DNA of 36,606 bases, from contig NZ_JANYGL010000018.1 in NCBI RefSeq assembly GCF_025362435.1, positions 1 through 36,606 on the forward strand, read 5' to 3'. The stretch's first letter is position 1, and each line of letters opens with the position of its first letter. Under the pieces are notes generated by a model. It was given only the letters and a program-made list of their open reading frames with translations, had not been told where the DNA came from and ran no database searches. This DNA comes from Polymorphobacter sp. GTDB taxonomy: Bacteria; Pseudomonadota; Alphaproteobacteria; Sphingomonadales; Sphingomonadaceae. Shown one piece after another: positions 12,711 to 33,045 of this stretch. The position numbers and the translations under genes were made by a program.

Positions 12711-12730
12711 CAAGGACTTGGCCAGCGACG

Positions 12731-14937: not shown

Positions 14938-15176
14938 CCTGTCCTACACCTCGTCATCTGGACTACCCTCCTCCCGTCGCCACCGGGCGCGCGTGTTCTT
15001 TCTCATCACTGGCCCACGGCAAGTCGACGCCTTCACGGACGAGGCCAAGACGGTTCCGACGCGACAAAAACGTCAACTCTGTCAACTTAAGCGGTGGAAG
15101 CCCTGCATCGCGGGCGCTCCGAAACGCCGGTTCGGAACGACGGAAACGTCAACTCTGTCAACTTAACGCTCTAGCG
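14938..15176 (+). repeat. dispersed intergenic repeat, copy A
   Basis: This element of about 238 bp matches the reverse complement of 32811-33045. Shared blocks in order are CTGTCCTACACC (start), a block at 14981-15034 containing GTGTTCTTTCTCATCA, a 22-base block at 15069-15090, a variable 54-base spacer, the same 22-base block again at 15145-15166, and CGCTCTAG. The 22-base block read on the minus strand holds the direct repeat AGTTGAC-AG-AGTTGAC. The 426 bases from 14893 to 15318 hold no gene I can support, only this element, a partial second copy of the CTTTCTCATC block (about 15198-15215) and the short repeat at 15266. Confidence 0.85.
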
Positions 15177-15265
15177 TCCGCCATTGCCGCCCGGCGGCAC
15201 GCGCTCTTTCTCATCGGTGCAAACTCCTCGCTCTTCGCGGAAAGGCGAACGAGCAAAAACACCGG

Positions 15266-15294
15266 CGTTTGTGTGAACTTATTTGGAACTTAGC
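15266..15294 (-). repeat. short dispersed 3'-flanking repeat, copy 2
   Basis: CGTTTGTGTGAACTTATTT followed by a GGAACTTAGC tail matches 8311-8339 with one mismatch. Read on the minus strand it lies 25 bases beyond the stop of the quinone oxidoreductase gene, the same relation as copy 1 has to queA. Confidence 0.75.
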
Positions 15295-15318
15295 TTATTT
15301 GGTTAGTTTCCAGTTTGC

Positions 15319-16317
15319 CTACGCGACCGCGAGGACGATCTTGCCGACGTGGTCGCCCGCCTCCATCCGGCGGTGCGCATCGGCGGCATCGGCGAGGGCG
15401 AATGTCCGGTCGCTGACCGCGCGGAGCTTGCCAGCCGCGAACAGCGGCCAGACCTCGCGCTCCAACGCTGCGGCGATCGCCGCCTTGAACGCCACTGGCC
15501 GCGCCCGCAGCATCGACCCGCTCAGCGTCAGGCGGCGGCGCATGACGAGGCCGAAGTTGACCTCCGCCGTCGCGCCGCGCTGGAGGGCGATCGAGACGTG
15601 GCGGCCATCGTCGCCGAGGCACATCAGGTTGCGCGGGATATAATCGCCGCCGACCATGTCGAGGACGACGTCGACGCCCTGGCCCCCGGTGATCCCGGCG
15701 ACCTTGTCGACGAAGTCGCTCGCCTTGTAGTCGATCGCATGGTCGGCCCCGAGCCCGCGCGCCGCGGCGCACTTGTCGGCCGACCCGGCGGTGACGATGA
15801 GCTTGAGCCCGCGCGCCTTGGCCAGCAGGATCGCGGTCGTGCCGATGCCGCTGGTGCCGCCGTGGACCAGGACGGTCTCGCCCGCCGCCGCATGGCCGCG
15901 CTCGAACAGGTTCGACCAGACGGTGAAATACGTCTCGGGCAGCCCGGCGGCGGCGATATAGTCGAGGCCCTCGGGGATCGGCAGGCACTGGCCCGCCGGG
16001 ACGACGCAATATTCGGCATAGCCGCCGCCGATGACCAGCGCGCAGACCCGGTCGCCGACCGCCCAGCGCCCGCCGGTCGGGCCGACCGCAACCACCTCGC
16101 CGGCGATCTCGAGCCCCATGATCGTCGGCGCCGCGGGCGGCATCGGGTACAGGCCCTGCCGCTGGAGGACGTCGGGGCGATTGACCCCGGCGGCGTGGAC
16201 GCGGACCAGCACCTCGCCGTCGGCGGGGGTCGGGACCGGGCGGGACACCGGCACCAGCACCTCGGGGCCGCCCGGGGCCGAAGGATCGATCGCGGTCATC
16301 GTCGTGGGAATCGTCAT
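15319..16317 (-). CDS. NAD(P)H quinone oxidoreductase, PIG3/zinc-less MDR family
   Basis: The 332-residue medium-chain dehydrogenase probably reduces quinones with NADPH. GroES-like N-terminal half: VRVHAAGVNRPDVLQRQGLYP (about 38-58), IMGLEIAGEVVAVG, then VGDRVCAL. The Rossmann half contains ETYFTVWSNLFERG, ETVLVHGGTSGIGTTAILLAKARG and GADHAIDYKASDFVDKV. No zinc-ligand cysteine/histidine pattern is seen, as expected for the QOR branch. The C-terminal DAADAHRRMEAGDHVGKIVL is the usual family ending. ATG 16317 is used; ATG 16299 (MTAID) is also possible because neither has a clear ribosome binding site. Confidence 0.92.
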   Translation of the reverse strand: MTIPTTMTAIDPSAPGGPEVLVPVSRPVPTPADGEVLVRVHAAGVNRPDVLQRQGLYPMPPAAPTIMGLEIAGEVVAVGPTGGRWAVGDRVCALVIGGGYAEYCVVPAGQCLPIPEGLDYIAAAGLPETYFTVWSNLFERGHAAAGETVLVHGGTSGIGTTAILLAKARGLKLIVTAGSADKCAAARGLGADHAIDYKASDFVDKVAGITGGQGVDVVLDMVGGDYIPRNLMCLGDDGRHVSIALQRGATAEVNFGLVMRRRLTLSGSMLRARPVAFKAAIAAALEREVWPLFAAGKLRAVSDRTFALADAADAHRRMEAGDHVGKIVLAVA

Positions 16318-16362
16318 GCCCGCGATATTGACTTGGCCGCGCGCCGGGTCAACGTCGGCGGC

Positions 16363-16554
16363 ATGGATGACGACCTGCCCCGCCCCAAGGACGACGTGCT
16401 CGCGGCGCTGCTGGCGCAGGACCTCGACCGGCTATCGGTCGGCGAGCTCGACGACCGCATTGTCGCCCTCGAGGCCGAGGTCGCCCGGACCAGGGCCAAG
16501 CGCGACGGCGCAAGCAAGTTCCGCTCGGCCGCCGACTCGCTGTTCCGCCGCTAG
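16363..16554 (+). CDS. DUF1192 family protein
   Basis: The 63-residue acidic-then-basic protein contains the DUF1192 pattern: MDDDLPRPKDD, then LLAQDLDRLSVGELDDRIVALEAEVARTRA, then KFRSAADSLFRR. The family is small, alphaproteobacterial and of unknown function; the middle helix is probably a short coiled coil. The ATG at 16363 lies 45 bases from the divergent quinone oxidoreductase start. Its TAG stop shares three bases with the TAG of the convergent downstream gene (CTAG at 16551-16554). Confidence 0.85.
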   Translation: MDDDLPRPKDDVLAALLAQDLDRLSVGELDDRIVALEAEVARTRAKRDGASKFRSAADSLFRR

Positions 16555-16754
16555 GCGGTCAGCGCGGCGATCAGCCGGGCAAACATCGCGATATTATCGG
16601 TCTGGTGGGCGACGACCCCGGCGGTGATGTCCTGCGTCGTATCGTCGGGCATCTTGAGCAGCGCCCGGACGCCGCCGACGCCGAACAGCTCGACCTGGCG
16701 GGCTGCATCCTCCGACTGGCGCTGGCACCAGTCGGCCAATTCGGCGGGCGTCAC
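16551..16754 (-). CDS. hypothetical small protein
   Basis: This is a 67-residue soluble protein starting with GTG (TPAELADWCQRQSEDAARQ...), ending in NIAMFARLIAALTA. I do not recognise a family. It appears mostly helical with one cysteine (residue 10). The GTG overlaps the TGA of the upstream membrane protein gene by 3 bases (GTGA), which strongly supports this start and co-translation. It overlaps the convergent DUF1192 stop. Confidence 0.65.
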   Translation of the reverse strand: MTPAELADWCQRQSEDAARQVELFGVGGVRALLKMPDDTTQDITAGVVAHQTDNIAMFARLIAALTA

Positions 16755-17155
16755 GCGGCGGCAGCCGAGACGAGCTTGCGCGCCAGTCCGTCGCCGCTGC
16801 CGAAGACGATCCACAACGGCGCCCCCGCCGCCGCGCCGAGGACGGTCAGCACCGCCAGCCCGCCGCCGAACAGTGCGATCATCGCCGTCGCCCCGCCGAC
16901 CGCGGCGCGTTCGGTGTTGCTGCGCTCGTCCCACGCACTGCGCTTGATCGCGTCGCCGAGACGCTGGATCAACGGCCACGCCGCCTTGCCGTCGACCGTC
17001 GCCATCAGCGCCGAGCGCGCCTTGCCGAAGCCGTCCTCCGAATCGTCGCGGATCGCCAGCAACCGGCCCGCCCATGCGGCGAGCGCGGCGCGCTGCTCGG
17101 GGGTCGCGCCCTCGGTCAGCTCGGTGGCAACGCGGTCTTCCATCGCTTCGCTCAT
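16751..17155 (-). CDS. hypothetical protein with one hydrophobic segment
   Basis: The 134-residue protein has a charged helical N-terminal half (MSEAMEDRVATELTEG..., QRAALAAWAGRLLAIRDDSEDGF) and a hydrophobic stretch at about 87-118 (GGATAMIALFGGGLAVLTVLGAAAG) that could span the membrane once. The segment KSAWDERSNTERAA-like (about 71-85) precedes it. I do not recognise a family. The ATG at 17155 has GGGGAG 6 bases upstream. It is coupled to the next gene through GTGA and is divergent from the acyl-CoA dehydrogenase operon, so the LiuR-like box at 17207-17220 could affect both directions. Confidence 0.72.
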   Translation of the reverse strand: MSEAMEDRVATELTEGATPEQRAALAAWAGRLLAIRDDSEDGFGKARSALMATVDGKAAWPLIQRLGDAIKRSAWDERSNTERAAVGGATAMIALFGGGLAVLTVLGAAAGAPLWIVFGSGDGLARKLVSAAAA

Positions 17156-17206
17156 CTCATCTCCCCTTCGCGCCAAGCCTATCACGCCGCAGGGGTTGCA
17201 CGCGAC

Positions 17207-17220
17207 TGACGTTAACGTAA
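17207..17220 (+). promoter_or_regulatory. LiuR-like operator in the acyl-CoA dehydrogenase promoter
   Basis: TGACGTTAACGTAA contains the perfect palindrome ACGTTAACGT (17209-17218). This resembles the operator TTTACGTnnACGTAAA known for the MerR-family branched-chain amino acid regulator LiuR. It lies 30 bases upstream of the first acyl-CoA dehydrogenase start and just downstream of TTGCAC (17196-17201), a possible -35. No merR-type gene is present in the window. Confidence 0.55.
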
Positions 17221-17249
17221 AGTCCTGCCAAAGCCCCTGGGGAGACGGC

Positions 17250-18350
17250 ATGGACTTCGACTTTTCCGACGACGCCAAGGCGTTGCGCGAGCAGGCCCGC
17301 AAGTTCTTCGACGAACGCGCCGGACCGGCGGTAGCGCGAGCCTCGATGAACGGCACCGCGTCGTTCGACGCAGCCTTGTGGCAGGCAGTGGTCGACCTCG
17401 GCTGGACCGCGGCGCGCGTCCCTGAAGCGCATGGCGGGGTCGGCATGTCGTCCGAGGCGGCGTGCGTGCTTGCCGAGGAGGCCGGGCGCAGCCTCGCGCC
17501 GATCCCGCTGGCGCAGGCACTGGCGGCGACCGAGGCGCTGATCGCGCTTGGCACCCCCGAACAGCAGGCGCGCTGGCTCCCCGGCATTGCCGATGGCTCG
17601 GTCGTCGCGGTCACCGGCTGGGCCGAGGGCGGCACCGCCTCCCCTGCCAAGGCATCGGCGAAGGTCGACGGCGGCGCGATCAACGGCACCAAGTCGCCGA
17701 TCGCCGACCTCGCCGCGGCGACAATGGCGATCGTCAGCGCAGCCGGTCCCGATGGCCCCGCGCTCTACATCGTCGACCTCAAGGGCGAGGGCGTCGGCGT
17801 TGCCCCGGTCGACACGCTCGACCTCGTCCGCCGCCACGGCACGCTGACGCTAAGCGGTGCCGCAGCCGACCCGCTCGGCACCACGGCAGGCTACCACGAC
17901 TGGCTCGACCGGGCCGCGATCCTCGGCAGCTTCGAGGCGATGGGGACCGCGACCGCGGCAATGGACATGGCGGTCGCCTATGCCAAGGAACGCACCGCCT
18001 TCGGCCAGAAGATCGGGCGATACCAAGGCATCAAGCACAAGTGCGCCGACATGTACATCAAGCTCGAACTCGCCCGCGCCCACGCCCTCCACGCGGCATG
18101 GGCGATGGAGGCGGGCGCCGCCGAACTCCGCCAGGCGGCGAGCGCGGCCCGCGTCGCCAGCCTCGACGCGCTGGCGTTCGCCGCCGAGGAGAACGTCCAG
18201 ATCCACGGCGGCATCGGCTTCACGTGGGAGAGCGACTGCCAGTTCTACTACCGCCGCAACCGCGCCCTCGTCGCGGCCCTCGGCAGCCGCAATTTCTGGG
18301 CCGACCGGCTGGTGCGCTCGCTCGAGCAGCGCAACGCCGCCGCCGCGTAA
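17250..18350 (+). CDS. acyl-CoA dehydrogenase, probably non-catalytic or partner subunit
   Basis: The 366-residue FAD-dependent acyl-CoA dehydrogenase family protein has MDFDFSDDAKALREQARKF at the start, LGWTAARVPEAHGGVGM (about 50-66), AYAKERTAFGQKIGRYQGIKHKCADM in the C-terminal helical domain, and QIHGGIGFTWE. The usual catalytic Glu positions do not look filled: the helix-G position corresponding to Glu247 of the isovaleryl enzyme in this window reads LDRAAILG (Asp220), and there is no YEGTSxIxR motif. This suggests a partner in a heteromeric enzyme with the next gene. GGGGAGA precedes the ATG by 5 bases. The gap to the next gene is 12 bases. Confidence 0.88.
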   Translation: MDFDFSDDAKALREQARKFFDERAGPAVARASMNGTASFDAALWQAVVDLGWTAARVPEAHGGVGMSSEAACVLAEEAGRSLAPIPLAQALAATEALIALGTPEQQARWLPGIADGSVVAVTGWAEGGTASPAKASAKVDGGAINGTKSPIADLAAATMAIVSAAGPDGPALYIVDLKGEGVGVAPVDTLDLVRRHGTLTLSGAAADPLGTTAGYHDWLDRAAILGSFEAMGTATAAMDMAVAYAKERTAFGQKIGRYQGIKHKCADMYIKLELARAHALHAAWAMEAGAAELRQAASAARVASLDALAFAAEENVQIHGGIGFTWESDCQFYYRRNRALVAALGSRNFWADRLVRSLEQRNAAAA

Positions 18351-18362
18351 GGGAGACCGACG

Positions 18363-19583
18363 ATGGACTTCAACGATACCCCCGACGACGCCGAGTACCG
18401 CGCCAAGGCCCGCGCCTGGCTCGCCACCGCCGCCGCCGACTACCGCGACCCGCCCGCTCGCCCCGTCAGCCGCGGTGAGAACGTCCCCGAGTCGCGCAAG
18501 TGGCAGAAGATCAAGCACGCTGCCGGCTATACCGGCATCACCTGGCCCAAGGCGTTTGGCGGGCAGGGGCTGAGCCCGATGCACTCGATCATCTTCAACC
18601 AGGAGCAGTCGAAGTATCACGCCCCGACCGAGCTGTTCGCGATCGGCCTCGGCATGTGCATCCCGACCGTCTTCACCCACGGCTCGCCGGCGTTGATCGA
18701 GCGCTACGTCGCCAAGGCGCTCGAGGGCGAGGAGGTATGGTGCCAGCTGTTCTCCGAGCCGAGTGCAGGGTCCGACCTTGCCGGCATCCGGACCAAGGCC
18801 GTGCGTGACGGCGATGACTGGGTGATCGACGGGCAGAAGGTGTGGACGACCAACGCCCATTTGTCCGACTTCGGCATCATCGTCACCCGCACCGATCCCT
18901 CCGCGCCCAAGCACAAGGGGCTGACGATGTTCATCGTCGACATGCACGCACCAGGCGTCGAGGCGCGGCCGCTGAAGCAGATGTCGGGCGGCAGCGACTT
19001 CAACGAGGTGTTCTTCACCGGGGTCCGGGTCAGCGACAGCCACCGCCTCGGCGCGGTCGGCGACGGCTGGAAGGTGTCGCTAACAACGCTGATGAACGAG
19101 CGCCTCGCGGTCGGCGGCAAGCCCGGCCATGCGCCCGGCTACCGCGACCTGATGGCGCTCGCCGCGCGGATCGAGACCGACATGGGCCCGGCGATCGAGG
19201 CACGCGACGTCCGCCAGCGGATCGCCGTGACGTACATCGCCGACGAGGGCATCAGGCTCACCCAGATGCGCGCGCTGTCGGCACTGTCGAAGGGCGAGGC
19301 GCCGGGACCCGAGCAGTCGATCAGCAAGGTCGTCGTCGCCAAGACGATGCAGGAAATGGCGGCGTTCGCGCTCGACCTGTCGGAGGCTTCGGGCTTTACC
19401 ACCGCTGGCGGCGACCCCGGGCTCCACAAGCTCCAGGGCAGCTACATGGCGTCGGCGGGGCTGCGGATTGCCGGCGGCACCGACGAGATCCTGCGCAACA
19501 TCATCGCGGAGCGCGTCCTCGGCCTGCCCGGCGACATGCGTCCCGACAAGGACACGCCGTTCAACGAAATTCGCGCAGCCTGA
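18363..19583 (+). CDS. acyl-CoA dehydrogenase, catalytic partner
   Basis: The 406-residue FAD enzyme introduces an alpha-beta double bond in an acyl-CoA. It has YTGITWPKAFGGQGL (about 56-70), WCQLFSEPSAGSDLAGIRTKA (about 126-146), the flavin-domain IDGQKVWTTNAH, and a C-terminal RIAGGTDEILRNIIAERVLGLP. Glu246 in LMNERLAVGG aligns with the catalytic Glu of isovaleryl-type enzymes, whereas the MCAD-type Glu position is Gly. It follows the previous acyl-CoA dehydrogenase by 12 bases with GGGAGA as ribosome binding site. Substrate is unknown; paired genes of this type often act on bulky or branched acyl-CoAs. Confidence 0.9.
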   Translation: MDFNDTPDDAEYRAKARAWLATAAADYRDPPARPVSRGENVPESRKWQKIKHAAGYTGITWPKAFGGQGLSPMHSIIFNQEQSKYHAPTELFAIGLGMCIPTVFTHGSPALIERYVAKALEGEEVWCQLFSEPSAGSDLAGIRTKAVRDGDDWVIDGQKVWTTNAHLSDFGIIVTRTDPSAPKHKGLTMFIVDMHAPGVEARPLKQMSGGSDFNEVFFTGVRVSDSHRLGAVGDGWKVSLTTLMNERLAVGGKPGHAPGYRDLMALAARIETDMGPAIEARDVRQRIAVTYIADEGIRLTQMRALSALSKGEAPGPEQSISKVVVAKTMQEMAAFALDLSEASGFTTAGGDPGLHKLQGSYMASAGLRIAGGTDEILRNIIAERVLGLPGDMRPDKDTPFNEIRAA

Positions 19584-19636
19584 TCGAGAACATCACTTAA
19601 TAATCTTAATACACATGCGTAACAAGTTAAAAAAGC

Positions 19637-19668
19637 GTCGGAATATTTTACACTTTCGTCGGCGCCGA
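19637..19668 (+). promoter_or_regulatory. possible activator-binding region upstream of the sigma-54 promoter
   Basis: Two dyad-like elements lie in an AT-rich stretch: GTCGGAATATTTTACAC (19637-19653, imperfect palindrome) and TCGGCGCCGA (19659-19668, perfect palindrome). They are 36-67 bases upstream of the -24 element. A PrsR-type enhancer-binding protein is the natural candidate ligand, but this is inference. Confidence 0.35.
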
Positions 19669-19702
19669 AGGTTAAGTAGTTGAAAGATCAGTAAGCATCG
19701 TT

Positions 19703-19718
19703 TGGCATGGATCGTGCC
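19703..19718 (+). promoter_or_regulatory. sigma-54 (RpoN) promoter of the PEP-CTERM gene
   Basis: TGGCATGGATCGTGCC has GG (19704-19705) and GC (19716-19717) separated by exactly 10 bases, and matches TGGCAyG-N4-TTGCw at most positions. The predicted start of transcription is near 19729, 25 bases before the ATG at 19754, with GGAG in between. PEP-CTERM genes are known to be under sigma-54 and PrsK/PrsR control. Confidence 0.75.
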
Positions 19719-19753
19719 TTGGTCGCCGCAGGTGAGTCACCTCGGAGATTAGA

Positions 19754-20374
19754 ATGAAGAGTTTGTTGCTTCTTGCGCCTGTCCTCGCTTTTGCCGGTTC
19801 GGCTCAGGCCTTGACGATCACGTCGTCCCCTCTCGATGTCGCACCCTCAGCGGGCGAAAAGGTCGTGTTCGATTTCAACGGCGGCGCCCCTGTCGCCGGT
19901 TACAGCTACACCGGCGGTACAATCTTCACGCACTCGGTTGCTAACGTTGCTGCAGCCCCCGCGGGTGACACCACCCCGTTCCTCGCGGTCCAGCAGGGCG
20001 ATACCGCCACCTTCACCTTCGCCAAAGCGATCAAGTCGTTCAGCATTTACATCGGCTCGGTCGACTCGTTCAACTCGCTGCATTTTACCGGTCCGGGCTA
20101 TGACTCGGGCGTGTTCTCGGCGTCGATGCTTCCGGGCGGCGACAACGGCAACCAGGTCAATGGCGACACAAATCGCCGCTTCTTCTTCACCTTCAATGGT
20201 GGGCAGAGCGTCAAGACCGTCACCCTCGGAAGTGCGGGCAACTCGTTCGAGATCGACAACATCGCCGTCGCGAATGTTCCCGAGCCGGCCACCTGGGCCA
20301 TGCTCGTCGGTGGTTTCGGCCTGATCGGCTTCGCCCGCCGTCGCAAGTCGACGCTCGAGACCGTCGCGGCCTAA
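19754..20374 (+). CDS. PEPxxWA-CTERM sorting domain protein
   Basis: The 206-residue exported protein has signal peptide MKSLLLLAPVLAFAGSAQA (cleavage near residue 19-20). A beta-rich, Gly/Ser/Thr-rich body (about 20-170) follows, with a VFDFNGGAPVAGYSYTGG stretch and an SFEIDNIAVANV region. The C-terminal sorting signal is VPEPATWAML then a hydrophobic stretch and RRRK (about 175-198). Such proteins are processed by exosortase/EpsH systems and surface-displayed, usually with exopolysaccharide. No exosortase gene is in the window. A sigma-54 promoter precedes it and a strong terminator follows, making a monocistronic unit. Confidence 0.92.
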   Translation: MKSLLLLAPVLAFAGSAQALTITSSPLDVAPSAGEKVVFDFNGGAPVAGYSYTGGTIFTHSVANVAAAPAGDTTPFLAVQQGDTATFTFAKAIKSFSIYIGSVDSFNSLHFTGPGYDSGVFSASMLPGGDNGNQVNGDTNRRFFFTFNGGQSVKTVTLGSAGNSFEIDNIAVANVPEPATWAMLVGGFGLIGFARRRKSTLETVAA

Positions 20375-20419
20375 AGCCAACGATTGCGGGATGCCTCGTG
20401 GGCGTCCCGACGCGAAATG

Positions 20420-20451
20420 ACTGCGCGCAGCCCCGGTTGCGCGCAGTTTTT
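20420..20451 (+). terminator. rho-independent terminator after the PEP-CTERM gene
   Basis: A perfect 10-bp stem (ACTGCGCGCA at 20420-20429 with TGCGCGCAGT at 20438-20447) is followed by a T run (20447-20451). It lies 46 bases past the PEP-CTERM stop. Confidence 0.9.
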
Positions 20452-20513
20452 GTCTGTGGTCGCCACGCTGCGTGACGACTTGGCGCTGTTCTAGACCCGG
20501 CCGACTGTCTAAC

Positions 20514-20527
20514 GAACAACGATGTTC
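20514..20527 (+). promoter_or_regulatory. candidate operator upstream of isovaleryl-CoA dehydrogenase
   Basis: GAACA-ACGA-TGTTC is a 5-bp inverted repeat, 29 bases upstream of the ATG. The protein that binds it is unknown. The ACGTTAACGT box found at the other acyl-CoA dehydrogenase operon is absent here. Confidence 0.35.
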
Positions 20528-20555
20528 TGTCCGACCTTGACCAAATAGGCGCCCG

Positions 20556-21719
20556 ATGACCCTCTCGACGCTCAACTTCGCCCATGGCGAGACTATCGAC
20601 ATGCTGCGCGATACGGTGCGCGCGTTCGCCGCCGCCGAGATCGCGCCGCGCGCCGACGCGATCGACCGCGACAACGTCTTCCCGCGCGACCTGTGGACTA
20701 AACTCGGCGATCTCGGCCTTCACGGCGTTACCGTGCCCGAGGCCGACGGCGGCGCCGGGCTCGGCTATCTCGCGCACGTCGTCGCGGTCGAGGAGATCAG
20801 CCGGGCCTCGGCGAGCGTAGGTCTGAGCTACGGCGCGCATTCCAACCTGTGCATCAACCAGATCGCCCGCTGGGGTACCGCCGAGCAGAAGGCGAAGTAT
20901 TTGCCCAAGCTGATCAGTGGTGAGCATCTCGGCAGCCTCGCGATGTCCGAAAGCGGCTCGGGGAGTGACGTCGTTTCGATGCGGCTGCGGGCAGAGAAGC
21001 GCAACGACCGCTACGTCCTCAACGGCTCGAAGTTCTGGATCACCAACGGCCCGGGAGCCGACACGCTCGTCGTTTATGGCAAGACCGATCCGGCTGCCGG
21101 CGCGCGCGGCATCACCGCCTTCCTGATTGAGCGGGGCATGGCCGGGTTCTCGACCGCGCAGAAGCTCGACAAGCTCGGGATGCGGGGTTCGGATACCTGC
21201 GAATTGGTTTTCGAGGATTGCGAGGTGCCGTTCGACAACGTCCTCGGCGAGGAGGGCCGCGGCGTGCAGGTGCTGATGTCGGGGCTCGACTACGAGCGCG
21301 TCGTCCTTGCGGGCGGACCCTTGGGCATCATGCAGGCATGCCTCGACACCGTCGTGCCGTACATTCACGAGCGCAAGCAGTTCGGCCAGGCGATCGGCGA
21401 GTTCCAGCTGATGCAGGGCAAGATCGCCGACATGTACGTCGCGCTGTCGACGGCGCAGGCGTACACCTACGCCGTCGCCCAGGCGTGCGATCGCGGCGAG
21501 ACGACACGCAAGGACGCCGCGGGGTGCATCCTCTATGCCGCCGAAAAGGCGACGTGGATGGCACTCGAGGCAATCCAGGCGCTTGGCGGCAATGGCTATA
21601 TCAACGACTACCCGACCGGCCGCCTGCTCCGAGATGCCAAGCTGTACGAGATCGGCGCGGGGACGAGCGAGATCCGTCGATATCTGATCGGGCGGGAATT
21701 GTTCGACGAGACGGCATGA
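20556..21719 (+). CDS. ivd: isovaleryl-CoA dehydrogenase
   Basis: The 387-residue FAD enzyme oxidises isovaleryl-CoA to 3-methylcrotonyl-CoA in leucine degradation. Family features are [26 protein letters not shown] (about 60-85), [12 protein letters not shown] (about 92-103), [32 protein letters not shown], and [17 protein letters not shown] with catalytic Glu247. The C-terminal [12 protein letters not shown] is typical, with Gly where MCAD has its base. The stop overlaps the mobA start (ATGA). The remaining leucine genes (liuB-E) are not nearby, so this copy is isolated from the usual liu operon. Confidence 0.93.
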
Positions 21720-22234
21720 CCGGCGTTCTCGGCGCAGTCCTCGCCGGGGGTGCGTCGAGCCGCTTCGGCAGCGACAAGGCGAAGGCGCTATTTCACGGCA
21801 AGGCGTTGATCGAGCATGTTATCTCGCGGCTGCGACGGCAAGTGTCGGACCTTGTCGTCGTCGGACGTGACTATCCAGGAGAGGCATCAATCCCCGACCG
21901 CCCTGCCCCCGGACTCGGTCCCCTTGGCGGGCTCTGCGCCGCGCTCCATCACGCCGACGCCGGCGGATATGACGCGGTCTTGACGAGCGGCTGCGACCTG
22001 CCGGAATTGCCGCTCGACCTGCGCGATGCACTCGGCGAGGGTTCCGCGTTTGTCATCGGCCAGCCGCTCCTCGCAGTATGGCCAAGTGCGCTGGCGGGGG
22101 TGCTCGACCTCCATCTCGCTCGTAGCTCCGACCGCTCGCTCCGCGGCTGGGTGGCGTTGACCGGTGCACGCGGCGTCGACCTCGGCCCGATCTGGAACGT
22201 TAACCGGCCAACGGACATACCGCCTGTGCAATAA
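21716..22234 (+). CDS. mobA: molybdenum cofactor guanylyltransferase
   Basis: The 172-residue enzyme transfers GMP to molybdopterin-Mo, giving the bis-MGD cofactor. The signature [14 protein letters not shown] (9-22) binds GTP, and [10 protein letters not shown] (about 90-99) holds the metal-binding aspartate. [12 protein letters not shown] (about 66-77) is also conserved. It is slightly short for MobA (usually about 190-200) because the C-terminal half is compact. The ATG overlaps the isovaleryl-CoA dehydrogenase stop, so translation is coupled although the pathways are unrelated. No molybdoenzyme gene is in the window. Confidence 0.88.
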
Positions 22235-22292
22235 TGCCGGAACACCGCCGGTCGCGCCGCTTTTATTGCTCAGAGGTTCGAGGAGCAGCAAC

Positions 22293-22868: not shown

Positions 22869-22883
22869 CCTCCCGTCGCCCGC

Positions 22884-23501: not shown

Positions 23502-23514
23502 GATCTCGTCTCCC

Positions 23515-25320: not shown

Positions 25321-25409
25321 GGGCAGACTTTCAAGGAGGAGGTGATGTAGTCAGCTAATATAGTCGCCAGCTTGACGCTAGCCCCTGCCGTGCCTGACGC
25401 TGGCAGATC

Positions 25410-26942
25410 CTACGCTATCGCGACGTCGTTTGCCTCGACCGGTTGCTTACTCCGGAGCCGCATCAGCAGCAGCATCGCGCCCGCCGGAATAAGCCAGACG
25501 ATCCGCGACTGGTAGCGGGGGAACGGCCCCGACAGGATTCCGCAGACGGCGGCGTTGAGGATCACCCCGGCGGCGAACATGATCGCCACCGCGAGCAGGC
25601 GGCGGTCGTCAGACAGCCCTGCCCCGCGCTCGGTCGTCATTCGCTGGCGGATAAAGGCGGCGGCAAGGCCCAGCGCCGCTGCCGCCGCGATCAGCCACGA
25701 CCCGTGCCACGACCGCGACTGCGCCATCGTCAGCCGCGACGGGCAGCCCCGGCCATGCTTGCCGCAGTCGGCGACGCGCTCGATCACCGGCGGCAGGTTG
25801 GTCTGCCGCCAGTACGGGTCGGTCAAATAGAAATGCGGATTGCGGATCGGATCCTCGACGAAGATCAGGATCAGCTGCTGCCCCCAGTTCTTGAGCGAGG
25901 CCAGAAGCTGCGCGCCCGGCGCATAAGCGATCGTGCCGAGGACGAAGCGCGCCTCCTGCTCTTCGAGGGCGACCCGGGTATTATAATCGGCGATCATGAA
26001 CACCCCGCTCCGCGGCATGTCGGACCACAGGATGTCCTCGGAGTTGTTGAGCGGCTTCGCCTTATAGTGGCACAGCGTATAGACGTTACCCTTCTCGCAG
26101 GCATGGCGGAGGTACGCCCGGCCCGGCCCATCGGCGAGCAGCCGGGCGGTGAGGAACGGCTGGTTGCGCAGCGGCTCGCCGGTCTCGTAACGGACCATCG
26201 CGCCGTAGACGCTGTTGGCGGCGAGCGCGACGACGATCGCGATCCCGACGCTCGCCAGCCGCCCCGCCGCCGAGCGCCGTCCGGGCTTGAGCCAGACCAG
26301 CATCAGCCCGCCGATCCCGAGCAAAGGCACCATGAACAGGATGTGCGAGGTGTGGACCGACAGTGCGATCGTCAGCAGCGCGCCGACCGACCACCGCTCC
26401 CACCGCCCGAGCCGGTCGCCGTAGATCAGCAGCAAGGCCGCCGCGACGACGACGATCCCGGCGAAGATGTCGGGCATGGCGAAGCCAGCGAAGAACGGCA
26501 GCGGCGAAACCAGCGAGACGACGCCGATCGCGAGCAGCGCGCTCCAGCGCGGCTCGGCGGGAAGCGCGGCGCGCCACAGCAGTACCACCAGCCAGCTGAC
26601 CGCCGACGCCTGCGCCAGCGCGACCAGCCACAGCGTCCCCGCCGATTCGGTAGCGTAGAGAAAGACGCTGTAGATCGCCGACCGCGACGCCATCTGGGTC
26701 AGCCCCATGTGGCGGTCGATCTTCGCCTGGGCGACGTCGGCGTCGGACAGCTCGGGCGGCGGCGGGCCGAGGCCGATGTCGCCGACGAGCTCCTTGCCGA
26801 GCGCGTAATAGTCGTCGGTGTCGGTGAAGACCGTCGGATGGCCGTTGATCGCGACGACGGCAAGGATCAGCAGTGCCCCCGCGAGCACCGCGCTCCACCA
26901 CTTGACGAGGACGATCGCGCGCCCGCTCGCTTCGGTCATCAA
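25410..26942 (-). CDS. polytopic membrane protein (GT-C-like), function unknown
   Basis: The 510-residue integral membrane protein has about 10 hydrophobic segments. After the first (about 15-33) comes a short acidic motif DTDDYYAL (41-48), in the place where GT-C glycosyltransferases carry a catalytic Asp in the first periplasmic loop. A large loop (about 280-415) contains CEKGNVYTLCHYK, SLKNWGQQLILIF and Cys/Gly-rich CGKHGRGCPSR. The C-terminal segments are about 420-440, 450-475 and 480-497. No ArnT/PMT-specific motif is clear, so the class is a guess. It starts 31 bases after the PAP2 gene. Confidence 0.75.
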   Translation of the reverse strand: MMTEASGRAIVLVKWWSAVLAGALLILAVVAINGHPTVFTDTDDYYALGKELVGDIGLGPPPPELSDADVAQAKIDRHMGLTQMASRSAIYSVFLYATESAGTLWLVALAQASAVSWLVVLLWRAALPAEPRWSALLAIGVVSLVSPLPFFAGFAMPDIFAGIVVVAAALLLIYGDRLGRWERWSVGALLTIALSVHTSHILFMVPLLGIGGLMLVWLKPGRRSAAGRLASVGIAIVVALAANSVYGAMVRYETGEPLRNQPFLTARLLADGPGRAYLRHACEKGNVYTLCHYKAKPLNNSEDILWSDMPRSGVFMIADYNTRVALEEQEARFVLGTIAYAPGAQLLASLKNWGQQLILIFVEDPIRNPHFYLTDPYWRQTNLPPVIERVADCGKHGRGCPSRLTMAQSRSWHGSWLIAAAAALGLAAAFIRQRMTTERGAGLSDDRRLLAVAIMFAAGVILNAAVCGILSGPFPRYQSRIVWLIPAGAMLLLMRLRSKQPVEANDVAIA

Positions 26943-26973
26943 GGTCCAGTTCGGTTGTACGTTCGCTGCCGAC

Positions 26974-27651
26974 CTATACGGCGATGCGGCGTTGCTGCAA
27001 CGCTATCCACGCGACAAGGGCGATTGCCGAGCCGAGCGCCCAGCCGGCAACGACATCGGTCGGCCAGTGAACCCCGAGGTAGACGCGGCTGATTCCGATC
27101 GCGACGACGAGGACGACGCTGCCTCCCATCAGCAGCCGCCGTGCCGCCGGTCGCAACTCCCCGGCGGCGATTATGGCGGCGAGGGTGAAGTAAACCGCGG
27201 GGGCCATCATCGAATGCCCGCTGGGGAAGCTCGACGAGGTGATCAGGTCATACTGGGTGACGAACATCGGCCGTTCGCGCCCGACATAATGCTTGATCGC
27301 CTCCGCCGCGACCTGCGCGACGACCGCGGTCGTGCCGAAGACCAGCGCCTGGCGGCGGCGGTCATAGACCAGCAGCACCGCGACCGCGGCGAGCGTGACC
27401 AATGTCAGCACGGTGAAGCCGCCGAGCGCGGTGATGTCGCGCGCCGTCTCGCGCAGCCACAGCGGGCCGATCGTCAGGTTGGGGTTGGCGGTCTGGCGGA
27501 AGGCGAGGAGGACGGCGCGGTCGAACCCGCTCGTCTCGCCCTCGCCGATCTCCGAACCAAGGTGCGCGACGCCCCACAGCACCGCGCAAACCAGCGCGAT
27601 GACGACAAGGATGCGCGGTTCGACGCGCCGGGTGGGGAGCGTGGTCGTCAA
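26974..27651 (-). CDS. PAP2 family (lipid) phosphatase
   Basis: The 225-residue membrane protein probably dephosphorylates phosphatidate or undecaprenyl-type lipid phosphates at the outer leaflet. Three phosphatase motifs are complete: KHYVGRERP (KxxxxxxRP), SSFPSGHSM (PSGH) and SRVYLGVHWPTDV (SRxxxxxHxxxD). Six hydrophobic segments are visible. Its ATG overlaps the stop of the DUF6582 gene by 4 bases (27648-27651), and the GT-C-like gene follows by 31 bases, so the three form one operon. The combination of lipid phosphatase and GT-C-like protein suggests envelope lipid or glycan work. Confidence 0.93.
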   Translation of the reverse strand: MTTTLPTRRVEPRILVVIALVCAVLWGVAHLGSEIGEGETSGFDRAVLLAFRQTANPNLTIGPLWLRETARDITALGGFTVLTLVTLAAVAVLLVYDRRRQALVFGTTAVVAQVAAEAIKHYVGRERPMFVTQYDLITSSSFPSGHSMMAPAVYFTLAAIIAAGELRPAARRLLMGGSVVLVVAIGISRVYLGVHWPTDVVAGWALGSAIALVAWIALQQRRIAV

Positions 27652-27896
27652 GACCTGGACTTACCGAGTTCCCGCCAGCTCGTCTCGCTGACCTCGACAT
27701 CGAACTTCTTCGCTGCGGCCTTGATTCGCTTCCACGCGGCGTCGCGCTCGGTGTCGCTGACGCCCTTGACCTGGTCAAAACGGGCGATTGCGTTGCGGAC
27801 GTGCTTTGCGTCCTCGAGCGGCTCCTTGCGCTCCTTGGGAAAGGCATATTTGCCGTCGTCGAGCTTGTCACGATCCCCAGTGTCCAGCTTGGCCAT
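27648..27896 (-). CDS. DUF6582 family small protein
   Basis: The 82-residue soluble, very charged protein has the pattern KYAFPKERKEPLEDAKHVRNAIARFDQVKGVSD, then ERDAAWKRIKAAAKKFDVEVSE. This is a widespread helical family of unknown function, often seen in stress-related contexts and near phage or plasmid genes. It resembles a short DNA/RNA- or nucleoprotein-associated helical unit rather than an enzyme. The ATG at 27896 has AAGGAGGAG 6 bases upstream. It leads the PAP2 and GT-C-like operon. Confidence 0.8.
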   Translation of the reverse strand: MAKLDTGDRDKLDDGKYAFPKERKEPLEDAKHVRNAIARFDQVKGVSDTERDAAWKRIKAAAKKFDVEVSETSWRELGKSRS

Positions 27897-27977
27897 CGTC
27901 GTCTCCTCCTTGCCGATCGGAGGGTAACTGATGGCGCGCGCGCAGGTTCACTATCGCCCGGCAGGTCGACGATGTGA

Positions 27978-28052
27978 TGGTGACCCCTACGGGAATCGAA
28001 CCCGTGCTTCAGCCGTGAGAGGGCCGCGTCCTAACCGCTAGACGAAGGGGCC
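27978..28052 (-). tRNA. tRNA-Glu (anticodon CTC)
   Basis: On the minus strand the acceptor GGCCCCT pairs with AGGGGTC, the anticodon stem CGGCC/GGCTG encloses CTCTCAC (anticodon CTC), and the T arm is CGGGTTCGATTCCCG. CCA is encoded. Confidence 0.96.
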
Positions 28053-28064
28053 AAGCGAGGCGCG

Positions 28065-28094
28065 TCAATACCGGCGCGAAGGGCGCTTCGTCAA
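28065..28094 (-). promoter_or_regulatory. probable sigma-70 promoter of tRNA-Glu
   Basis: TTGACG (minus-strand reading of 28089-28094) and TATTGA (28065-28070) are 18 bases apart, with the tRNA 5' end 12 bases further on. This is a normal arrangement for a stable RNA gene. Confidence 0.55.
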
Positions 28095-28116
28095 CCCACC
28101 GCGGCGAAGGCGTTAG

Positions 28117-29493
28117 CTAAGCAGCCGCGCGATGATCGCGGTCGGCCTTCTCCGCCTTGAGACAGTCGGCGAGCAAGAAGGCGAGTTCAAGCGCTTGGCT
28201 GGCGTTGAGGCGCGGGTCGCACTGTGTCTCGTAGCGGTCGGCGAGGCCTTCGTCGGTGATCGCAATCGCGCCGCCGGTGCATTCGGTGACGTCCTGTCCG
28301 GTCATCTCGACGTGGATGCCGCCGGCGTGGGTGCCCTCGGCGCGGTGGACCGCGAAGAAGCTGCGGACCTCGCGCAGGATCAGGTCGAACGGGCGCGTCT
28401 TATAGCCCCCCGCCGCCTTGACGGTGTTGCCGTGCATCGGGTCGCACGACCACACCACCGAGCGCCCCTCGCGGGCAACGGCGCGGACCAGACGGGGCAG
28501 CGCGCCCTCGACCTGGTCGGCGCCGAAGCGGGCGATCAGCGTCAGCCGCCCGGGGACGTTGCCCGGGTTGAGCGTGTCGGTCAGGCGCAGCAGGTCGTCG
28601 ACGGTGATCGACGGCCCGACCTTCAATCCGATCGGGTTGCCGACGCCGCGGAGGAACTCGACGTGCGCCGACCCGGCGAAGCGCGTCCGGTCGCCGATCC
28701 ACAGCATGTGCGCCGAGGTGTCGTACCAGTCGCCGGTCAGGCTATCCTGCCGCGTCAACGCCTGCTCGTAGCCGAGCAGGAGCGCCTCGTGGCTGGTGAA
28801 GAAGCTTGTCGCCTTCAATTGCGGCACCGTCTCGGGCGAGATCCCGCACGCCGCCATGAAGTCGAGCGCCTCGCCGATGCGGTCGGCAAGCGCCTGATAT
28901 TGCTCGCTCCACAGCGACCGGCCACCGAAATCGAGGTTCCACTGATGGACCTGCTGCAGGCTGGCATAGCCGCCGCTGGCGAAGGCGCGAAGCAGGTTGA
29001 GCGTCGCCGCCGACTGCATGTAGCCGCGCATCATCCGCGCTGGATCGGGGGTCCGCGATGCCGGGGTGAAGGCGATCCCGTTGATGTTGTCGCCGCGGTA
29101 GCTCGGCAGCGACACGCCGTCCTGTTCCTCGAAATCGCCCGATCGCGGCTTGGCGAACTGCCCAGCCATCCGTCCGACCTTCACCACCGGCAGCTTCGAC
29201 GCGAAGGTCAGGACGACCGCCATCTGGAGGAGGACGCGGAAGGTGTCGCGGATGTTGTTCGGGTGGAAGTCGGCGAAGCTTTCGGCGCAGTCGCCCCCCT
29301 GCATCAGGAAAGCCTTGCCCGCGGCGACGTCGGCGAGTTGCGCCGTCAGGTCGCGCGCCTCCCCGGCAAACACCAGTGGCGGATAGGTCCGCAGCTCGGC
29401 CTCGGTCGCGGCAAGCACCGCGGCGTCGGGGTAGATGGGGAGCTGCCGCGCCTCGTGGCCGCGCCAGCCGTCGGGGGTCCAGTTGGTCGTCAT
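28117..29493 (-). CDS. aroF: 3-deoxy-7-phosphoheptulonate synthase, class II
   Basis: The 458-residue DAHP synthase condenses PEP and erythrose 4-phosphate, the first shikimate step. It belongs to the plant-like class [14 protein letters not shown] (about 79-90) contains the metal-binding Cys, [49 protein letters not shown] (with Asp and His) and [17 protein letters not shown] (metal-binding Glu) are all present. The ATG at 29493 has GGAGCAG upstream, while the ORF continuing to 29823 has no similarity. Class II enzymes may be allosterically inhibited, which cannot be told here. Confidence 0.95.
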
Positions 29494-29692
29494 CGCTGCT
29501 CCAATGCGGAACTTCGCCGCGGCTGACAAGCATTCGCCGCGCGGATCGGGTTCGTCGTGGAAATCGGAAGTTGACGATCTTGACGCCACGTCGAAGCCAA
29601 GTCTCGCGCCTGTGAACCGGATCGGCTTCTTTGCGACGTTAAAAAGTTGAGCTTCGTCTTCATTGCCGGTGGAAATTACGCGCATCGACGGG

Positions 29693-29703
29693 GTGTAGGA
29701 CAG
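29693..29703 (+). repeat. GTGTAGGACAG motif in the aro-TonB intergenic region
   Basis: The same 11-mer forms the end of both dispersed repeat copies (14939-14949 reversed, 33035-33045). Here it stands alone. The 345 bases from 29494 to 29838 hold no gene I can support; besides this motif they contain the Fur-like sites and both promoters. Confidence 0.4.
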
Positions 29704-29764
29704 CCCTTTCTGCCGAAGCCCTGCCAAGCCGTTCTTCCTCATACGCATCCACTCGATCCATATC

Positions 29765-29806
29765 GCGAATAATTCGCAACAGGCTTGCGATTGAGAATGA
29801 CTCGCA
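29765..29806 (+). promoter_or_regulatory. Fur-like operators upstream of the TonB-dependent receptor
   Basis: GCGAATAATTCGC (29765-29777, near-perfect palindrome) and TTGAGAATGACTCGCA (29791-29806) are 13 bases apart and 33-74 bases upstream of the ATG at 29839. Both resemble Fur boxes of the TTGCGAATnATTCGCAA or TTGAGAATnATTCTCAA type. Iron repression of the receptor and PiuC genes is expected. Confidence 0.55.
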
Positions 29807-29838
29807 GTATCGGGCAGCCTCATTCGTCGGGGAACAGT

Positions 29839-32118
29839 ATGTCGAACACCAGAATGCCGCTCTCATTGCGGTCGCCCGCGCTCGTTCCCCTTACCGCGGC
29901 GCTGCTGTTCGGTGGAGCGGCGAAGGCCGACGCGGTGGCCGACGCCGCCGATGCAGCGGCACCCGTCAGCGACATCGTCGTCACTGGCTTTCGCGCGCCC
30001 GGGACCAATCCGTATGCCGATGCCAACGCGCCGTACAAGGTCGATCGCTCGGCGTCGTCGAAGCTGACCGAGGCGATCGCCGACACGCCCAAGTCGATCA
30101 CGATCATTCCGAAGGAGGTCATCCAGGACCTCGGCGCGCTGAGCTTCCGCGACCTCGCCCGCACCCAGCCCGGCGTCACCCTCGGCACCGGTGAAGGCGG
30201 CAACGCGTTCGGCGACCGCATCTTCATCCGCGGCTTCGACGCCCGCAACGACGTCTACATCGACGGGCTCCGCGACCCCGGCGTGTCGAGCCGAGAGGTT
30301 TTCGCGATCGAGCAGGTCGAGATCGTCAAGGGTCCGTCGTCGACCTATGGCGGGCGCGGCACCACCGGCGGCGCGGTCAGCCTGATCAGCAAGGCGCCGC
30401 AGGTGACCAATTTCGTCGAGGGCGAGGTCACCGGCGGCACCGACGCGACACGGCGCTTCACCGCCGACGTCAACCGCAAGCTCGCCGACACCGTCCAGCT
30501 TCGCGTCAACGGCATGTTCACCGATGCCGGGGTTGCCGGGCGCGACTATACCTACAGCCGCCGCTGGGGGGCTGCGGGGTCGCTCGCGTGGCAGGCGGCG
30601 CCGAACTTCGACGTCGTCCTCGATTATTACCACCTGACCGCCGACGGACTGCCAGACTGGGGCGTCCCGTTCGACGTTCGTAGCCAGCAGCCGTTCAACG
30701 TCGACCGCAACAACTTCTACGGCCTGCTCAAGCGCGACTTCACCCATTCGCTGACCGACATCGGCACCGCGCAGCTCGAATGGCGCCCCGCCGAGGGGGT
30801 CAAGCTAACCAGCAAGACCCGCTACGGCGAGACCCTCAACCAGTATATCGCCACCGTCGCCGAGCGCCCGAACATCAGCGATCCCAACCCCGCGAACTGG
30901 ACGGTGCAGGCCAACGCGCAGAGCCGCAATGCCCGCGCCAAGACCTGGGCCAACGTCACCGAGGCGAGCGGCGAGTTCGATACCGGCAGCTTCCACCACA
31001 GCCTCGTCGGCGGCGTCGAGTTCGACCACGAGGACATCGTCAACCGCCTGTTCCTCAACGGCCGCTCGGAGACCGTCGGCACGGTGATCATCCCGGCGGT
31101 GGTCATCCAGCAGAACCTGTTCAACCCCGACCCGAACAACCCGGCGTACGTACCCTTCCGCGGGCTGTCGGGAGCGGTCGCCGATACGCTGGTGGTGTCG
31201 AAGGCCGCGTACTTGCTCGACACGATCGACCTGACCAGCACGATCAAGCTCAGCGCCGGGGTTCGCTTCGACGACTATCTCGTGTCGAGCAACTCGCTGT
31301 CGGCGACGCCCTTGACCGCGACTGCCCCGGCGCAGACCCGGACCCTGCTTCGCAACCACAGCAGCTTCGTCAACTGGAACGGCGGGCTGGTGTGGAAGCC
31401 GGTGCCCAAGGCGACGCTGTACGTCTCGGCGAGCTCGTCGTCGAACCCGAGCGGCGAGCAGACCGACGCCAGCGGAGTCGCCTATGGCGGGCTTGGCCCG
31501 ACGACGAACAACCTCGATCCCGAGCGCAACTACAGCTACGAGGCCGGGGCGAAGTACCAGGCCAGCAAGGGCGGGCACGTCCTGCTGACCGCGGCGGTGT
31601 TCCGTACCGACAAGACCAACGGCCGCGTCATCGACCCGTTGAGCGGTGTCTCGCAGGTCCTCGCCGGCAAGCAGCGCGTCGACGGCTTCGAGCTCGGCGC
31701 CAGCGGTAACATCACCCCGCGCTGGGCGGTGTTCGGCGGCTACACCTACCTCGACGCCAAGGTGCTGCCGACGACCAACCCCGTCGTCCTCGGCGGGCCG
31801 TTCCCCAACGTCGCCAGGAACAGCTTCGCGATGCTGACGACGTACAAGCTGTTCGACAGCTTCACCGTCGGCGGGCAGGCGTTCTACAACAGCGCGCGCT
31901 ATGGCGGCTCGACGATCGCCCAGACCGCGATGCTGCCCGGCTACTGGCGCTTCGATGCCACCGCCAAGGCATCGGTGACGAGCAAGATCGAGGTCCAGCT
32001 CAACCTGCTCAACCTGACCAACAAGACGTACTACGACGCGATCTACCGCTCGGCGGCACCGTTCGCCTACGAGGCCCCCGGGCGCTCGGCGCTGGCGACG
32101 CTGCGCTTCAAGCTATAG
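29839..32118 (+). CDS. TonB-dependent siderophore receptor (catecholate type, Fiu-like)
   Basis: The 759-residue outer-membrane receptor has a signal peptide (about 1-31, ...GGAAKADA), TonB box SDIVVTGF (about 43-50), a plug domain with [49 protein letters not shown] (about 93-132), and a 22-strand-type barrel ending in ATLRFKL. It should import a ferric-siderophore with TonB-ExbBD energy. The immediate downstream piuC-type gene and the Fur-like sites place it with iron uptake. Fiu/PiuA-type receptors take catecholate or monohydroxylated degradation products, but the ligand here is not certain. ATG 29839 is preferred over 29785, with GGGGAA 5 bases upstream. Confidence 0.92.
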
Positions 32119-32128
32119 GGCTTCGGCG

Positions 32129-32812
32129 ATGCTCCTCGTCATCCCAGACGTCTTCTCCCCCGAGCAGGTCGCGGCGTGCGTCGCCGACCTGAACGCGGCG
32201 ACATGGGGCGACGGGAGGGTCACCGCCGGGCTGCAATCCGCCCCGGTCAAGGACAACGAGCAACTGTCGGAGACCTCCCCGGTTGCCCGCGCATGGGGCG
32301 ACCGGGTGCTCGACGCGCTCGGCGCGAGCGACCTGTTTGTCGCCGCCGCGCTGCCGCTCCGCACCTTCCCGCCGCTGTTCAACCGCTATGCCGGGGGGCA
32401 GTCGTTCGGCACCCACATCGACAATGCGATCCGCCCGATCCGCGGCACGAGCGTCAAGCTCCGCACCGACCTGTCGGCGACGTTGTTCCTCAATGACCCC
32501 GACAGCTATGACGGCGGCGAGCTGATCATCGAGGACGCCGGCGGCGGCCAGGTCATCAAGCTCCCGGCCGGCAGCATGGTGCTCTACCCCGCGTCGAGCC
32601 TCCACCGCATCGAGCCGGTCACCCGCGGAGTCCGCCTCGCCAGCTTCTTCTGGGTCCAGTCGATGGTTCGCGACGACGGCGCGCGGGCGTTGCTGTTTGA
32701 CCTCGACCGGACGATCCAGCGGCTCGCAGGCCGCGACGGGATCGGCGATGCCGAGGTCGTGGCGCTGACCGGCATCTACCACAATCTCGTCCGGCGCTGG
32801 GCGGAGAGCTAG
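32129..32812 (+). CDS. piuC: Fe(II)/2-oxoglutarate-dependent dioxygenase, PiuC/YbiX type
   Basis: The 227-residue protein has the double-stranded beta-helix with H96-x-D98 (GTHIDNAI) and H159 (SSLHRIEPV) as iron ligands, and R169 ([14 protein letters not shown]) for 2-oxoglutarate. [15 protein letters not shown] and [18 protein letters not shown] are family signatures. It starts 10 bases after the receptor stop and should be cotranscribed. PiuC-type proteins are commonly linked to catecholate siderophore receptors; their exact reaction is not established. The stop is followed at once by repeat copy B. Confidence 0.92.
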
Positions 32813-33045
32813 AGCGTTAAGTTGACAGAGTTGACGTTTCCGACGTCGACGATCTGGCTTCGCGGCGTCCGCAACGCGGGGCACTCCTACCGCTTAAGTT
32901 GACAGAGTTGACGTTTTCGCAACGTGCGGAATCGTCTTTCGCCCGCCCGCGAAGGCGTCGGCCTGCCGTGGCCATTGATGAGAAAGAACACGCGCCGCCC
33001 GGTGCGACAGCGAAAGGCTAGCGCGCGGTCTTGGGTGTAGGACAG
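32811..33045 (-). repeat. dispersed intergenic repeat, copy B
   Basis: This 235-base element is the reverse complement of 14938-15176 over shared blocks. The 22-base AGTTGAC-direct-repeat blocks lie at 32817-32838 and 32894-32915 (77 bases apart), the block containing GAGAAAGAACAC at 32951-33004, and GGGTGTAGGACAG at 33033-33045. It begins at the piuC stop and ends 113 bases before the histidine kinase GTG. Of the 346 bases between these genes, the remainder (33046-33158) is the kinase leader with no further feature I can support. Confidence 0.85.

Follow-up and report, generated by a model that had tools for sequence, protein, structure and literature searches.

The 36,606-nucleotide (nt) stretch of Polymorphobacter sp. 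DNA analyzed here, contig NZ_JANYGL010000018.1, positions 1 to 36,606 (hereafter the window), contains two similar intergenic elements in opposite orientation, copy A (14939–15176) and copy B (32811–33045), each composed of a promoter-like block, a short block resembling the boxA antitermination signal of ribosomal RNA (rRNA) leaders, and a paired direct repeat (DR). The A element starts at 14939, with position 14938 being one additional C. In an alignment of A with the reverse complement of B, 190 of 245 columns are identical, and the score of 111 compares with −29 for the best of 200 shuffles, demonstrating end-to-end homology; a repeat search of the window also placed arms I1, I2, I3, and I5 at A and B. 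Blocks CTGTCCTACACC and GTGTTCTTTCTCATCA are found in both copies, and a block around GTCAACTCTGTCAACTTAA occurs twice in each, with a spacing of 76 bases in A and 77 in B. The inverted pair with its matching order, length, and exact blocks, as well as the double blocks, had been claimed in a preliminary description of this DNA and are present as described. The 22-base block of that description corresponds to DR type b, which is one variant within a wider class of paired repeats, and A and B each carry two tandem type b units. Outside the limits given there, a second hairpin–boxA–DR unit (15172–15292) adjoins copy A. The spacer between the double blocks had been proposed to form a hairpin in copy A and to be a possible structured RNA; however, neither spacer gains in folding stability over shuffled sequences (z = +0.57 for A and +1.39 for B), and a comparison by eye of four full copies (A, B, and two from a sister species) places this stretch among those conserved least.

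Copies A and B are members of a dispersed family of dozens of small intergenic units. To describe this family we refer to the window's own genome as G000 (2.9 Mb, 165 contigs), to a congeneric sister species as G001, and to four other congeners as G002–G005, and we read all units on the strand of the box CTGTCCTACA. Copy A as a query identified 15 places in G000 and 15 in G001, two of the latter being full length at 83% identity, and the search of related genomes suggested in the preliminary description thus revealed a dispersed family in the genus; with two more full-length copies in G001 and partial copies elsewhere in G000, its view that this is a defined element and not a product of chance or local duplication was borne out. 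The end block TGTAGGACAG, which includes CTGTCCTACA, occurs 72 times in G000 versus 8 times for the reversed pattern, and after duplicates of one site were dropped 71 distinct CTGTCCTACA sites remained, approximately 40 of which have boxA (45 of 71 hold TGAGAA, the reverse complement of TTCTCA; 43 are recognized by a loose pattern, and 39 of 65 with two mismatches or fewer). A composite pattern joining promoter and boxA matches 34 times in G000, 38 in G001, 5 in G005, 4 in G004, 3 in G003, and 0 in G002, that is, in five of the six genomes of the genus and in none of 53 genomes of other genera, every reversed control being 0. The promoter pattern alone yields 54 matches in G000, 68 in G001 (67 distinct sites, which were used below), 16 in G002, 14 in G005, 18 in G004, and 9 in G003, with 0–4 elsewhere; its reversed control gives 0 within the genus and at most 1 in other relatives. 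Since retrieval of the G001 sites relied on an exact match to the promoter pattern, any site in that genome whose promoter has been lost or altered escapes view, and four more G001 boxA elements with a weaker −10 (L301–L304) stand outside the counts.

Outside the genus, a 19-mer scan of genome contigs gave a single match at an unrelated Paenibacillus site, and copy A had no match among 72,556 plasmid records. The 16S sequence of G001 has 91.5–94.1% identity to plasmid-borne 16S sequences of Novosphingobium, Sphingobium, and Sphingomonas among the best 20 of 511 records listed, and one unlisted plasmid record falls in the 99% band; this places the genus in Sphingomonadaceae or close to that family. 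Rfam models matched only three tRNAs in the whole window at the gathering threshold and nothing in 14900–15310 at E values up to 1 or in loci L003, L044, L023, and L027. The literature that we searched contained no description of the family or its motifs in anything found.

The order of parts within a unit is CTGTCCTACA, 15 nt, TAnnnT, a hairpin, and GYTCTTTCTCATYG, with the DR approximately 150 nt from the promoter-like block. Among the 69 of 71 G000 sites that have at least 60 nt downstream, TAnnnT lies exactly 15 nt past CTGTCCTACA in 52, and it is found in 0 or 1 of the 69 at each other offset from 5 to 44. This fixed spacing indicates that CTGTCCTACA-N15-TAnnnT is very probably a promoter, with an upstream box that is unusual for a promoter-like pair, and that the family units are probably transcribed. 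For hairpin and DR counts, which needed at least 200 nt downstream, 65 of 71 G000 sites and all 67 G001 sites were kept. The hairpins that precede boxA differ in sequence, and as a set they are more stable than dinucleotide-preserving shuffles, with a mean z of −1.14 in G000 (n = 39) and −1.49 in G001 (n = 41); these statistics are based on single-sequence folding in place of consensus folding. Using eight seeds and allowing four mismatches or fewer, we recognized a DR within 480 nt at 62 of 65 G000 sites and 55 of 67 G001 sites and in none of the reversed controls, figures that are partly fitted, above all for G000, because the seeds were taken from the same sites. The median distance of the DR from CTGTCCTACA is 161 nt in G000 and 146 nt in G001. 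DR spellings include GTGTGAACTTATTTTGAACTTA and CGTCAACTCTGTCAACTTAA, and the DR type differs between the orthologues L059 and L218, implying that DR types can interconvert. Inspection by eye additionally revealed congener spellings, GTGTACTTCGCT... in G005 (L327 and L328) and GTGTGAACTTCGTGAACTTCG in G002 (L310, L316, L317, and L320), as if DR recognition drifts between species, and three tandem DR units at the G002 site L317.

The block GYTCTTTCTCATYG can be compared directly with rRNA operon (rrn) leaders. The rrn leader of G001 contains CGCTCTTTCTCATTGTAGG approximately 220 nt before the 16S gene and after a possible hairpin, and the elements read GYTCTTTCTCAT(T/C)G at this motif, thereby sharing the letters of an rrn-type boxA. 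All four leaders fetched from named Sphingomonadaceae contain GCTCTTT(GAC or CTC)ATTGT approximately 200 nt before 16S, in the form GCTCTTTGACATTGT in three and GCTCTTTCTCATTGT in one, and in these leaders boxA is followed by a common sequence, ACATGTGGGC. The core is also shared with the gammaproteobacterial boxA consensus GYTCTTTAANA given in PMC5725501. Exact copies of the 12-mer GYTCTTTCTCAT number 39 in G000 and 47 in G001, against 0 and 1 in the reversed controls; each of the four other congeners has 1–9, and each of 53 relatives outside the genus has 0–3 (controls 0–2). On the strength of this letter-by-letter agreement we consider it highly likely that GYTCTTTCTCATYG is a true boxA. 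Some matches to the motif were set aside: 12 loci of other families that contain the 12-mer contain no rRNA, and many of them look coding by eye, for which reason we do not interpret GYTCTTTCTCAT as boxA at these loci; the boxA-like match at L299:1484 in G001 also looks coding by eye. A small peptide encoded by a short open reading frame on the opposite strand, ATGAGAAAGAAC..., was considered as well; its letters repeat without silent changes (by eye), and the frame shifts in A and B. As the letters of this frame are the reverse complement of boxA, the peptide reading was dropped.

Many units hold their position between species. When the G000 sites were compared with G001, both flanks matched in the same orientation at 33 of 71 sites, one flank at 16 (four of which rest on weak, repeat-like matches), and none at 22; several of the G000 sites are at contig ends. 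All 33 sites with both flanks agree on boxA under a stricter pattern, with boxA present in both species at 20 and absent in both at 13. In the part of the orthologue alignments shown, boxA and DR are often conserved islands. For gene context we used gene calls from an in-house codon-score script instead of a standard caller and counted 61 of 71 G000 sites and 64 of 67 G001 sites, the remainder lacking called genes on both sides or having little sequence. Among boxA units, the right-hand gene is opposing in 27 of 36 cases (G000) and 29 of 39 (G001), compared with 8 of 25 and 7 of 25 boxA-less sites, respectively (p = 0.0014 and 0.0003). The layout is convergent for 22 of 36 and 21 of 39 boxA units, whereas among the gene pairs of the window this holds for 5 of 33. 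Where the right-hand gene is opposing, the median distance from the DR end to the 3′ end of that gene is 39 nt in G000 (n = 35) and 50 nt in G001 (n = 28). Sites without boxA mostly precede co-directional genes (17 of 25 in G000, 18 of 25 in G001), the case in the window being a class II 3-deoxy-D-arabino-heptulosonate 7-phosphate (DAHP) synthase gene, and similar sites in G000 precede genes that by eye resemble glmS, hom, and secE. In both species (L086 and L245), a possible short, conserved, arginine-rich reading frame was noticed by eye in the interval from the promoter to the hom-like gene.

In G001, the 17.6-kb stretch that separates A from B (15.3–32.8 kb) is inverted, and both breakpoints lie at elements; the preliminary description had suspected that an inverted pair of this kind could drive inversion. 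On G001 contig C1, window positions 12700–13980 map to 3325705–3326970 on the plus strand, followed by 2.6 kb for which no match was found and then by an element whose outer 29 nt resemble the outer flank of A. The window sequence then runs downward from 33046 to 26461 in one fetched stretch and from 20956 to 15323 in a second, the two being separated by window positions 21–26.5 kb, after which come an element carrying boxA plus a type a DR and window positions 34945–36305 on the plus strand. As the two copies have opposite orientations, the simplest cause of a flip on the G001 lineage would be recombination of A with B, or of their ancestors with each other. At the right end G003 is collinear with G000, with translated L280 matching the window at 28.3–29.6, 32.5–32.7, and 34.9–35.6 kb and the intervening genes missing, and the flip is therefore more likely to have occurred on the G001 branch, a judgment based on a single genome and a single end. 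The gene at 32129–32812 has a different neighbor in G005, which is uninformative here. The gene at 33093–34550 between copy B and a glutathione reductase gene in G000 is a PAS-domain, histidine-kinase-like gene (NCBIfam), for which the equivalent junction in G001 yielded no match. Coordinates of the features in the window are given in table 1.

Table 1. Elements and associated features in the window (positions on the forward strand)
Feature	Position	Strand	Remarks
Copy A promoter-like block, CTGTCCTACA-N15-TACCCT	14939..14969	+	Sequence and family statistics
Copy A hairpin directly before boxA (boxB position)	14975..14993	+	Alone z −0.43, no better than shuffles; excess stability at family level
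Copy A boxA, GTTCTTTCTCAT	14995..15006	+	Motif also in G001 rrn leader
Copy A DR type b, first unit (GTCAACTCTGTCAACTT)	15072..15088	+	
Copy A DR type b, second unit	15148..15164	+	
Second hairpin and boxA (GCTCTTTCTCAT, 15203–15214) past copy A	15172..15214	+	No CTGTCCTACA of its own
DR type a	15271..15292	+	1 mismatch; 27 nt from end of opposing gene 15319–16317
Segment between A and B	15177..32807	.	Inverted in sister genome G001
DR type c	29566..29587	−	Between boxA-less promoter and DAHP synthase gene
Third site, CTGTCCTACA-N15-TAATTT	29673..29703	−	No boxA; upstream of class II DAHP synthase gene (28117–29493, minus)
Copy B DR type b, second unit	32819..32835	−	Adjoins stop codon (32810–32812) of opposing gene 32129–32812
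Copy B DR type b, first unit	32896..32912	−	
Copy B boxA, GTTCTTTCTCAT	32978..32989	−	
Copy B promoter-like block, CTGTCCTACA-N15-TAGCCT	33015..33045	−	

The family is best read as a genus-specific set of intergenic transcription units that is inherited mostly vertically. The units likely make noncoding RNA, and, taken as a whole, we favor with some confidence a reading in which their polymerase carries the antitermination (Nus) factors known from ribosomal operons and transcription ends at the DR. Each unit would start at the uniform promoter, and its RNA would begin with a hairpin and an rrn-type boxA, from which the polymerase would probably acquire the NusB/S10 antitermination complex in the same manner as on rRNA. 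The polymerase would then continue for approximately 150 nt without an obvious gene to a DR beside the neighboring gene. In most cases this DR lies next to the 3′ end of a gene in opposing orientation, and a DR-binding factor would probably stop or meet the polymerase there. A Rho-resistant polymerase directed antisense, together with the DR site, might limit read-through from the opposing gene and keep convergent transcripts apart, and we put forward such a boundary role between convergent genes as a tentative suggestion. The full proposition, that an rRNA antitermination signal has been turned into a genome-wide boundary system of boxA-marked noncoding units with a protein-bound DR, mostly between convergent genes, the same units being inversion hot spots, is rather doubtful as it stands. 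Antitermination of the boxA type is usually regarded as serving rRNA and a few special transcripts. With about 40 dispersed boxA units per genome, all on a uniform promoter and mostly aimed at opposing genes, the Nus machinery would be put to a new use; such units would make the separation of convergent genes directly testable, and the inversion between A and B suggests that such units also help to shape the chromosome.

Several points weigh against this reading. No standard sigma-70 promoter was detected in the copy A region (14880–15330), and a terminator scan of that region only, for a GC stem followed by a T run, gave no intrinsic terminators. The invariance of the 10-mer by which the sites were collected is by construction, in orthologues as well. 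Taken singly, the hairpins of A (z = −0.43) and B (z = +0.24) are no more stable than their shuffled counterparts, and RNAalifold on a MAFFT alignment of 44 boxA modules (of 45, one row broken by a contig end being left out) gave no consensus pairs, probably because hairpins of differing length and subfamily fail to align; these modules were picked for TTCTCA, the invariance of which is thus by selection. Nine of 41 boxA sites in G001 have no recognized DR, the DR figures being in any case partly fitted, and in G000 the gene faced by a boxA unit is co-directional in 9 of 36 cases. G002, which is 95% complete, has 16 promoters and no exact composites, with near-boxA motifs at only 2 of the 16 sites. 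Because 16S is without a match in the G000 assembly, the identification of boxA depends on the congener G001. In the rrn region of G001, 5 kb of which reads N, the visible parts yielded no DR.

An origin as a non-autonomous mobile element, of the miniature inverted-repeat transposable element (MITE) type or similar to repetitive extragenic palindromic (REP) sequences, was also raised in the preliminary description and would account for a dispersed, multicopy family seen in only one genus, for the full-length relationship among A, B, and the two G001 copies, and for the 22 sites that have no flank match at a G001 site. We nevertheless regard it as highly improbable that such an element has spread over the genome: at least 33 of 71 sites hold position and orientation in G001, which makes recent mobility unlikely, the internal parts are promoter-like and contain boxA, and copy A is unmatched in the plasmid records. 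Neither terminal inverted repeats nor target duplications were noticed by eye in the element sequences, in which no formal test for them was made. What stands of the preliminary interpretation is the defined element and the inversion but not the mobile unit or the structured spacer RNA, and its suggestion of binding blocks for protein or RNA stays plausible. Equally, the conserved positions and orientations across species would be needless if the units were pure Nus-factor decoys, short boxA RNAs that titrate NusB, S10, and SuhB away from rRNA transcription from positions that matter little; the 47 copies of the boxA 12-mer in G001 versus one 16S locus found there, and the retention of boxA between orthologous sites while spacers diverge, fit this idea, but boxA-less units have the same promoter and DR, and we judge it unlikely.

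The orientation of the units bears on the remaining alternatives. If they were ordinary gene promoters with leaders in which boxA raises mRNA processivity, an antisense orientation would be incidental, and boxA-less sites do mostly lie before co-directional genes such as that for class II DAHP synthase; the boxA units themselves, however, face an opposing gene in most cases in both species (27/36 and 29/39), leaving this explanation a low probability. The succession of a hairpin and a pyrimidine run between convergent genes is what would be expected of a bidirectional terminator or insulator acting as a DNA or RNA hairpin only, with GYTCTTTCTCAT as a U-rich terminator tail and not boxA, and TTTT is present on the opposing strand near the DR in 17/27 and 13/22 cases (figures without a control). 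This we consider quite unlikely, given that the 12-mer is repeated without a single changed letter (39 and 47 times vs. 0 and 1 in controls) and equals the rrn leader boxA including the ATTGT(A/T)GG extension, that no terminator was found in the copy A region, and that the promoter-like block is fixed in spacing.

Compared with known systems, antitermination-loaded noncoding units would be closest to the boxB–boxA region of rRNA leaders, with which they share the boxA letters of a congener's rrn operon including the ATTGT(A/T)GG tail, a hairpin directly upstream as seen at family level, and a location near the predicted transcript start. They differ in being dozens of separate, short units in intergenic DNA that have another promoter, are not followed by rRNA, show no clear boxC, and carry a DR at the far end. 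A weak resemblance to the boxC of rRNA leaders (GTGTGGG-like) is seen in GTGTGAACTT, which is present in some element DRs. In Enterobacteriaceae, suhB and other genes are regulated by Nus factors through a boxA outside rRNA operons (PMC5725501). The elements likewise have boxA outside rRNA operons, where Nus regulation would be by analogy, but the suhB type consists of single mRNA leaders near the start codon, whereas the elements are numerous and for the most part point at an opposing gene. A boxA upstream of CRISPR arrays, as cited in PMC7862264, is similarly near the promoter of a noncoding RNA; the elements are short in comparison, and no repeat–spacer array was noticed downstream of them, no formal search having been made.

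Repeats of the REP and MITE types are dispersed and intergenic and can drive rearrangements. The elements are also dispersed, intergenic, and tied to a rearrangement, but they differ in that many of their positions are stable between species, a promoter-like block and boxA lie inside, and recent movement is unlikely.

Further repeats were observed in the window and at element loci. Positions 8316–8337, in the gap separating two convergent genes, hold an exact type a DR pair whose vicinity lacks both an exact CTGTCCTACA and boxA; the DR thus also occurs alone. A 23-base palindromic repeat, CCCCTCCCCTTCAGGGGAGGGGC, is present at 36384–36406 and 36482–36504, and similar stretches are found in the spacers of several element loci, for example, L092 and L112; by eye, this palindrome and a second dispersed repeat, GTCATCCCGGCGAAGGCCGGGACC, lie between boxA and the DR at several sites.

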